This document shows, piece by piece, positions 51,580-64,000 of a DNA stretch of 64,000 nucleotides; the first letter of the stretch is position 1; every line of letters begins with the position of its first letter. The DNA lies in assembly GCF_030684215.1 (NCBI RefSeq), contig NZ_JAUXOV010000073.1:30396-94395 (forward strand), given 5' to 3'. A program made the translations under genes and the position numbers. The notes under the pieces were generated by a model. That model worked only from the letters and a program-made list of their open reading frames with translations. It was not told the origin of the DNA and did not search any database. This DNA is from Pseudotabrizicola sp. Lineage in GTDB: Bacteria > Pseudomonadota > Alphaproteobacteria > Rhodobacterales > Rhodobacteraceae.

Positions 51580-51656
51580 GCACCCATAGCTCAGCTGGAT
51601 AGAGCGTTGCCCTCCGAAGGCAAAGGTCGCACGTTCGAATCGTGCTGGGTGCACCA
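51580..51656 (+). tRNA. tRNA-Arg (anticodon CCG)
   Basis: gcaccca...tgggtgc acceptor stem, encoded CCA, anticodon loop cctCCGaa, T-loop GTTCGAATC. Confidence 0.97.
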
Positions 51657-61662: not shown

Positions 61663-62436
61663 CTATAGTGCCGTCCAGCCCCCATCGACCGAAATCGTTG
61701 TCCCGGTGATCTGCACCGCCGCATCAGAGGCCAAAAATACCGCCGTTCCGCCGATCTGTTCCACGGTCGCAAACTCGCGGCTTGGCTGACGCTCCAGCAT
61801 CACCTGTTTGATCACCGTATCGCGGTCCAAGTTGTGCTTCTTCATCTGGTCGGGGATCTGCGCCTCGACCAAGGGCGTCAGCACATAGCCGGGGCAGATC
61901 GCATTGGCGGTGATCCCTTGGCCTGCACATTCCAGTGCCGTCACCTTGGTAAAGCCCACCACCCCATGCTTGGCCGCCACATAGGCCGACTTATAGGGGC
62001 TGGCGGTCAGCCCATGGGCTGAGGCCACGTTGATCACCCGGCCCCAGCCCTTTTCCCGCATCATCGGCAGCGCGACTGCGGTGGTGTGAAAGGCCGAGCT
62101 GAGGTTGATAGCCAGAATCGCATTCCACTTGTCGACCGGGAAATCCTCGATCCCGGCCACATGCTGGATACCGGCGTTGTTCACAAGAATATCGCAAGCC
62201 CCCGCGTCGGCGATCAGCCGGCGGCACTCATCACCATTCGACATATCGGCTGCGATGTAGCGCACGGTCACGCCATGGCGCGACGACAAGGCCGCGGCCA
62301 GCGCATGATCTTCGGCGCGGTCGGTGAAACTGTTGATCACGACATCGGCACCAGCCCGCGCCAGTTCTTCGGCCACACCCAGACCAATGCCGGAATTGGA
62401 CCCGGTAACGATGGCGGTCTTGCCCTTCAGGATCAT
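61663..62436 (-). CDS. bdhA: 3-hydroxybutyrate dehydrogenase (SDR family)
   Basis: TAIVTGSNSGIGLGVAEEL, NNAGIQHVAGIEDFPVDKWNAILAINLSSAFHT, YKSAYVAAKHGVVGFTK. Confidence 0.9.
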   Translation of the reverse strand: MILKGKTAIVTGSNSGIGLGVAEELARAGADVVINSFTDRAEDHALAAALSSRHGVTVRYIAADMSNGDECRRLIADAGACDILVNNAGIQHVAGIEDFPVDKWNAILAINLSSAFHTTAVALPMMREKGWGRVINVASAHGLTASPYKSAYVAAKHGVVGFTKVTALECAGQGITANAICPGYVLTPLVEAQIPDQMKKHNLDRDTVIKQVMLERQPSREFATVEQIGGTAVFLASDAAVQITGTTISVDGGWTAL

Positions 62437-62513
62437 GGTCTTCCCCTTTTGCTGCTGCTGCGCAGGTTACATGCTGCAAACGCGAATTACAGGGGGGCCG
62501 TTCCTGCAAAGCC

Positions 62514-62542
62514 AAAAAAAACGCCGGCACGAAGCCGGCGTT
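62514..62542 (-). terminator. Rho-independent terminator upstream of bdhA
   Basis: Minus strand: aacgccggcttcgtgccggcgtttttttt; perfect 9-bp stem. Confidence 0.88.
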
Positions 62543-62589
62543 AAGTTATTGAGGCAGGTTTCATACAGGCAAGAAACCTATCGAGCAGT
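62514..62589 (-). ncRNA. Putative orphan small RNA (about 76 nt)
   Basis: Minus strand: TTGGCC-N17-TATATA promoter-like element, then aggtttc-N10-gaaacct hairpin, then AACGCCGGC-ttcgt-GCCGGCGTT + U8 terminator, with no CDS between promoter and terminator. Confidence 0.6.
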
Positions 62590-62703
62590 AGCACTTATAT
62601 ACGCCGCTTGTTGCCGATGGCCAAGTTAAAAGTTTGAAAAGGCTCACAAGCCGCCATACGCTAGGGACCAAGAAACCAAGGCCACGGGGGATTGTCGCCA
62701 GAA

Positions 62704-64000
62704 TGGAACGGAATTTTTTCCACTTTGCACAGGGATTTGCTGCGGCGCTTTTAGTAGCACTCACGCCGTCTCTCGCCGTTTCACAGGTTGGTGATTCTGC
62801 GACCCATGGCATAGCTATGTATGGCGACCCCGCCCTCCCCCCGGATTTTGTGTCCCTGCCCCATGTGAACCCGGATGCCCCCAAAGGCGGACGCATCGTT
62901 TTCGGCGAGTCCGGCAGCTTTGACTCGATGAACCCGTTCATTCTAAAGGGCCGTGCCCCAGCGGGTCTTTCGGCCCTTACGGTAGAAACGCTGATGGGCC
63001 GGTCTTACGACGAACCCTTCACCATGTACGGCCTTTTGGCCGAATCGATCACCACAGATGCGGCCCGGACCTACGCAGAATTTACTTTGCGTGAGGCAGC
63101 CCGATTCTCTGACGGCAGCCCGGTGACCGTCGAAGACGTACGCTGGTCGTTTGAAACCTTGGGCACTCTTGGCAACCCGCGCTATCACACCGCATGGAAC
63201 AAGATCGGCAGCACCGAGATCACCGGGCCGCGCTCGATCCGCTTTACCTTCAACACCACTGACCGCGAACTGCCCCTCATCCTCGGCCTGCGCCCGATCC
63301 TGCAAAAGGCACAATGGGAGGGCAAGGTGTTCGAAGACAGCACATTAGAGGCCCCCATCGGGTCCGGCCCCTATGTGGTGGCCGGGTTTGAGACTGGCAA
63401 ATACATCAGCTACAAAAAGAACTCCGACTGGTGGGGCAAGGATCTGCCCTTCAACCGTGGCCAGCACAACTTTGACGAAGTCCGCTATGACTATTTCGGC
63501 GATGGCGGCGTGGTATTTGAGGCGTTCAAGGGCGGTCTGATCACCTCATGGCGTGAAACCAACCCGGCGAAATGGGGTAACTCGTATGACTGGCCCGAAA
63601 TCCGGTCGGGTGAGGTGGTGAAATCCGAAATTCCGCACAGCCGCCCGTCGGGGATAGAGGGCTTTGTGATGAACACCCGCCGCCCGCTGTTCGCCGATTG
63701 GCGCGTGCGCGAGGCGATGATCCTTGCCTTCAATTTTGAACTTGTAAACCAGACCCTGAACGGCGGGGCCAATCCGCGTATCCAGTCCTATTTCGGCAAC
63801 TCGCCGCTTGGTTTCACCCCCGGCACCCCGGCGGAAGGTGAGGTTCTGGCCTTGCTGGAGCCGTTCCGCGCCGACCTGTTGCCCGGCGCACTGGACGGCT
63901 ATGCCGTGCCCACGGGCGACGGGTCCGAGGCCAATCGCAGCAACATCCGCGCGGCGACCGCCCTGCTGGCCGAGGCAGGCTATACGATTGACGCGGGCGC
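62704..64000 (+). CDS. Extracellular peptide ABC transporter substrate-binding protein (SBP_bac_5, YejA-like), 3' truncated by window
   Basis: ATG at 62704; frame stays open to the window end, so the ORF track lacks it: MERNFFHFAQGFAAALLVALTPSLAVSQVGDSATHGIAMYGDPALPPDFVSLPHVNPDAPKGGRIVFGESGSFDSMNPFILKG. Confidence 0.9.

Follow-up and report, generated by a model that had tools for sequence, protein, structure and literature searches.

Organization of the locus

The window, the whole 64,000-nucleotide stretch of Pseudotabrizicola sp. DNA that was analysed, contains a predicted small RNA (sRNA) gene on the minus strand, between bdhA and a divergently oriented gene of a peptide ABC transporter. 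The elements of this gene and its neighbours are listed below.

61663–62436, minus strand: bdhA, 3-hydroxybutyrate dehydrogenase (TIGR01963), the downstream neighbour, outside the sRNA unit
62514–62589, minus strand: predicted sRNA gene of about 76 nt
62513–62542, minus strand: predicted intrinsic terminator, nine pairs followed by U8
62549–62557, minus strand: 3' arm CUGCCUCAA, nt 33–41 of the RNA, predicted second pairing region
62556–62579, minus strand: predicted 5' hairpin AGGUUUC-uugccuguau-GAAACCU
62581–62589, minus strand: 5' arm ACUGCUCGA, predicted pairing region
62596–62601, minus strand: -10 element TATATA
62619–62624, minus strand: -35 element TTGGCC
62627–62639: conserved A/T-rich block TTTCAAACTTTTA (minus-strand reading), between the divergent promoters of the sRNA and the transporter gene
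62634–62662, plus strand: TTGAAA-17-TACGCT, a putative promoter for divergent transcription of the transporter gene
62703–64000, plus strand: 5' part of a family-5 solute-binding protein gene, SBP_bac_5 (peptide ABC transporter), assigned by PF00496 (E 2.7e-47) and synteny

The -35 and -10 elements of the sRNA promoter are separated by a 17-nt spacer, and the predicted +1 is A62589, the A of ACTGCTCG. The terminator comprises the stem-loop AACGCCGGC-ttcgt-GCCGGCGTT at 62542–62520 (minus strand) with a T run after it. The first two letters of the 3' arm are also the closing letters of the 5' hairpin. A sequence-only reading of this DNA had proposed the minus-strand promoter, the +1 near 62589, the 7-bp hairpin and the 9-bp terminator with U8, and all of them were located where that reading had placed them. 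A small AUG ORF in the core of the RNA (AUGAAACCUGCCUCAAUAACUUAA) was judged to be non-coding; it has no Shine-Dalgarno sequence, and its length shifts with indels in the linker. Elsewhere in the window, a tRNA gene (51580–51653, plus strand) is the sole Rfam match above its cut-off.

Wherever the SBP_bac_5 gene was found in relatives, its divergent start lies approximately 70–130 nt behind the sRNA +1. The gene bdhA, which in the window occupies the same strand with the sRNA 153 nt upstream of it, lies between 120 and more than 1700 nt downstream of the sRNA at other loci, and at several it was not found nearby. Because the distance to bdhA is variable, or bdhA is absent from the vicinity, the sRNA is not an mRNA leader; an attenuator of a longer bdhA mRNA, which the sequence-only reading had named as a refuting outcome, is contradicted by the same observations. 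The fixed partner of the sRNA is the divergent transporter promoter, not bdhA. The placement of the sRNA between the two genes is constant on the transporter side, whereas bdhA is not a fixed neighbour. The pattern TTGAAA-17-TAnnnT is conserved on the reverse strand at many loci, and the A/T-rich block in the 62627–62662 region could serve as an UP element or as a regulator site common to both promoters.

Conservation of the promoter, the core and the terminator

Among 127 distinct loci, the -35 element is mostly CTTGG[A/C], and a TATAAA-like -10 element occupies positions -12 to -7. The per-column information leaps to 1.93–2.00 bits exactly at +1 and is maintained at approximately 2 bits through the 5' hairpin. 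In contrast, the median DNA identity of bdhA is 73%. Because a generic sigma-70 scan did not include the sRNA promoter among those it listed, the credibility of this promoter derives from its conservation, by which a gene with its own conserved promoter and start site is strongly supported. The promoter pattern CTTGG plus [T/G]TATAAA fits the sigma-70 and RpoH-type (RpoHI/RpoHII) classes alike, and the alphaproteobacterial RpoH-type consensus is compatible with it.

The family was sampled with 397 Rhodobacteraceae genomes representing 396 genera, and 381 of these have the 40-nt core, which starts at the predicted +1, with at most three mismatches; among the matches listed, nearly all are exact. 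All but one of the genomes with a match hold a single copy, and the core pattern read backwards, used as a control, gave no match in the same 397 genomes. With blastn, the sRNA region was detected in 36/36 other members of the family and in 0/24 genomes of other families. The sRNA is carried by 107 of the 110 loci examined, a set composed of 30 loci found through the sRNA itself and 80 found through bdhA homology. Among 289 genomes sampled across the class, a 26-nt inner core occurred in four, all of them Rhodobacteraceae, and in none of the 285 genomes outside this family. The distribution obtained with a covariance model of the sRNA agrees with that of the inner-core search. In addition, seven near-complete family genomes had been missed by the pattern; in five of them the model detected either a diverged copy or a fragment at an edge. 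Four diverged copies adjoin the transporter gene, and the locus is thus kept. In genome G142, a second weak match (L310:1501-1576, 32.7 bits) accompanies its own diverged copy; the loop GCCUG is kept and both stem strands are changed (GGCGCC/GGCGCC), possibly representing a paralogue or a chance match.

The 78-nt RNA has a predicted folding energy of -26.9 kcal/mol (z = -3.7 against shuffles), and its sequence includes an A/U-rich linker and a U-tail. Seven of the nine terminator pairs are G-C, and the terminator scan ranked it the strongest of four detected nearby (2.4 expected by chance). Five of its nine pairs have changes on both sides with the pairing preserved, which points to an intrinsic terminator kept by selection. 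The 5' hairpin shows no variation among 80 distinct sequences; covariation is shown for the terminator only, because the 5' hairpin never varies. The existence of this hairpin rests on energy and invariance, not on covariation, and should be regarded as predicted. Both hairpins, whose conservation in relatives the sequence-only reading had left to be checked, are conserved there. The covariation that it sought in both stems was detected in the terminator, and the 5' hairpin carries no information on this point.

Conservation across the family from +1 onward, together with terminator covariation, strongly supports a stand-alone sRNA gene that has a promoter and a terminator of its own, and the orphan sRNA gene originally proposed gains the same support. 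The whole 40-nt core is invariant, loop included, apart from outliers such as L307 and L308, in which the 5' arm deviates (AUGGCGCUA and AAUGCUCGAA, respectively). The sRNA is probably ancestral to Rhodobacteraceae and is almost frozen in sequence. The near-invariance of the arms, the hairpin and the loop suggests further targets, protein contact, or both. Members of Rhodobacteraceae abound in the sea, and model phototrophs and denitrifiers belong to the family. If the assignment is correct, an RNA preserved nearly letter for letter over approximately 380 genera would rank with the most strongly conserved sRNAs known from this group.

Comparison with known sRNAs

In the Rfam search, no sRNA family scored above its cut-off at the sRNA locus. 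The sub-threshold matches, including SorX, suhB/MmgR and BjrC1505, largely involve the terminator. SorX (RF02784) of Rhodobacter sphaeroides resembles the sRNA of the window in being of the Hfq type, in coming from the same bacterial family, and in its size and terminator. However, the locus scores 22.3 bits against a cut-off of 46.6 bits, and the true SorX (81.6 bits) is located elsewhere in the same genome. SorX originates by cleavage of the ompR-1 3' UTR (PMC8625941), whereas the sRNA described here has its own predicted promoter. The suhB/MmgR family (RF00519) of Rhizobiales, also short alphaproteobacterial sRNAs of the Hfq type, gave a full-length but weak match (22.8 bits against a 41-bit cut-off), and other loci in the examined genomes outscore the sRNA locus for this model. 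The match to BjrC1505 (RF02356) reached 25 bits against a cut-off of 50 bits.

StsR (RSs0827) of R. sphaeroides is a 72-nt, Hfq-associated orphan sRNA with its own promoter (PMC8307010), and its orphan nature, promoter and comparable length recall the window sRNA. The two are not identical, as the sequence of the probe published for StsR (PMC11354728) is absent. AbcR1 and AbcR2 are alphaproteobacterial sRNAs linked to ABC transporters (PMC3712013). They differ from the present RNA, which has no Rfam match to them and for which the transporter gene is a neighbour, not a supported target. A master list for R. sphaeroides counts 38 orphans among 79 sRNAs (PMC8625941), and the window sRNA is of the same kind and may correspond to one of the unnamed and uncharacterised orphans of that species. 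Comparison by neighbour or sequence with the sRNAs listed in the literature for P. denitrificans and R. pomeroyi gave nothing decisive, and a literature text search with core fragments found no paper. The sRNA is absent from Rfam and apparently unnamed and uncharacterised.

A candidate target in a putative Tad pilus operon

The target search covered 2.4 Mb of the complete relative G018, in which 1867 genes were called and pairing was scored around their starts. Two candidates, ftsA and a gene for a TPR lipoprotein, were traced through the family. The latter gene is preceded by a TadC-like gene and another TPR gene and followed by a prepilin-peptidase-like gene, a neighbourhood that, from the identities read from the sequence, appears to be a Tad/Flp pilus operon. 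A conserved intercistronic stretch, TGAGGCA-N-CGAGCAGT, lies directly before its Shine-Dalgarno sequence AAGGA. CGAGCAGT pairs with nt 1–8 of the sRNA and TGAGGCA with nt 34–40, and their order is that required for antiparallel pairing of both arms around the hairpin. The stretch before the TPR-lipoprotein gene (L313-L342) is conserved across genera, and that before ftsA is not.

A complement of at least 6 nt to the 5' arm is present at this site in 23 of 29 genera, compared with 3.7% of background genes, and complements of at least 6 nt to both arms in 11 of 29 genera, compared with 6 of 1865 genes in the background. Because G018 itself does not have the 3'-arm match, this match played no part in the choice of the gene. 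The two-arm score exceeded those of 300/300 shuffles, and swapping the arms reduced it from 9.35 to 2.19. For ftsA, taken as a control, swapping hardly affected the score, which indicates that part of the two-arm scores reflects generic Shine-Dalgarno affinity. In L338, both target sites are altered and the pairing is retained through G-U pairs. Cofolds with the hairpin kept gave -6.6 to -18.7 kcal/mol, with both arms paired in most of eight examples; in the species of the window itself, the good match is confined to the 5' arm (7 nt), with a total of -6.6 kcal/mol. These comparisons show conserved complementarity between the sRNA and an mRNA from another locus. Some genomes carry the sRNA but have a diverged Tad gene or none, and the Tad target alone therefore cannot explain the conservation of the sRNA. 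As for ftsA, the target was predicted in one genome (G018) and its site is not conserved in the family. Several genes of a cell-division and cell-wall cluster, ftsW, ddl and ftsA (G018:C1:1091154-1102280), are among the high-ranking hits of the pairing scan in this one genome.

We favour, with a probability of roughly 0.6, a stand-alone, trans-acting and probably Hfq-dependent sRNA that uses two-arm pairing to act on the mRNA of the Tad TPR lipoprotein and on others. The predicted transcript would be synthesized from a sigma-70 or RpoH-type promoter and would bind Hfq via its A/U-rich linker and U-tail. The arms (nt 1–9 and 33–41) would pair with a single short stretch of mRNA, leaving the hairpin folded and forming a three-way junction. 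Because the site is just upstream of the Shine-Dalgarno sequence, the simplest outcome would be hindered ribosome loading and less pilus-assembly protein, although the direction of this effect is a guess. Surface attachment would thereby be tied to whatever signal drives the sRNA. We more tentatively envisage, at somewhat below even odds, an ultraconserved, family-defining sRNA whose two-arm clamp around its own hairpin controls Tad-pilus assembly across Rhodobacteraceae and thereby acts as a conserved switch that sets surface attachment at the post-transcriptional level. The site predicted in the pilus operon could reveal how attachment is tuned post-transcriptionally.

The main alternative, which we consider rather unlikely, is that the RNA is a real and conserved trans-acting sRNA with a fortuitous Tad match, its true targets being other mRNAs that it contacts with its loop or its linker. 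The invariance of the entire core extends to the loop, beyond what two arms would require, and the single-genome prediction yielded many candidates, both of which fit this explanation. A fortuitous match does not readily account for order-specific two-arm conservation within an otherwise unconstrained intercistronic stretch. Furthermore, 7-mers complementary to the loop were apparently enriched near start codons, but no enrichment was left once backgrounds of second and third order were used, and the effect is a Shine-Dalgarno-like one. The loop was consequently set aside as a seed, and the arms flanking the hairpin are better supported as pairing regions than the UUGCCUGUAU loop that the sequence-only reading had put forward for target prediction.

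Regulation mainly of the divergent peptide-transporter gene, in the manner of AbcR-type sRNAs acting on ABC transporters, is very improbable. Linkage is tight wherever the transporter gene is found, and the leader in the window has a 9-nt match to the sRNA (GGUUUCUUG/CAAGAAACC). However, this match occurs in only 5 of 127 loci, the duplex energy is marginally better than that of shuffled sequences (4/60), and the two-arm score is no better (75/300). The transporter gene ranked 737 of 1701 in one relative, a two-arm signal like that of the Tad site was looked for there and was absent, and the linkage is explained by the shared promoter region.

We likewise assign a very low probability to a transcript that chiefly binds a protein, by sequestration or as a scaffold, instead of base pairing. 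Such a role would suit the invariance of both hairpin strands and the loop without covariation, but CsrA-type GGA motifs are absent from the core and the arm complementarity would be left unexplained. Least probable is a bdhA 5' leader or attenuator, with the terminator as a premature stop of the bdhA mRNA: the shared strand and the 153-nt distance in the window are compatible with it, but the sRNA is unchanged where bdhA is distant or not found nearby, a pairing signal between bdhA and the sRNA was looked for and none was found, and the conserved part is the core, not a switch between alternative folds.
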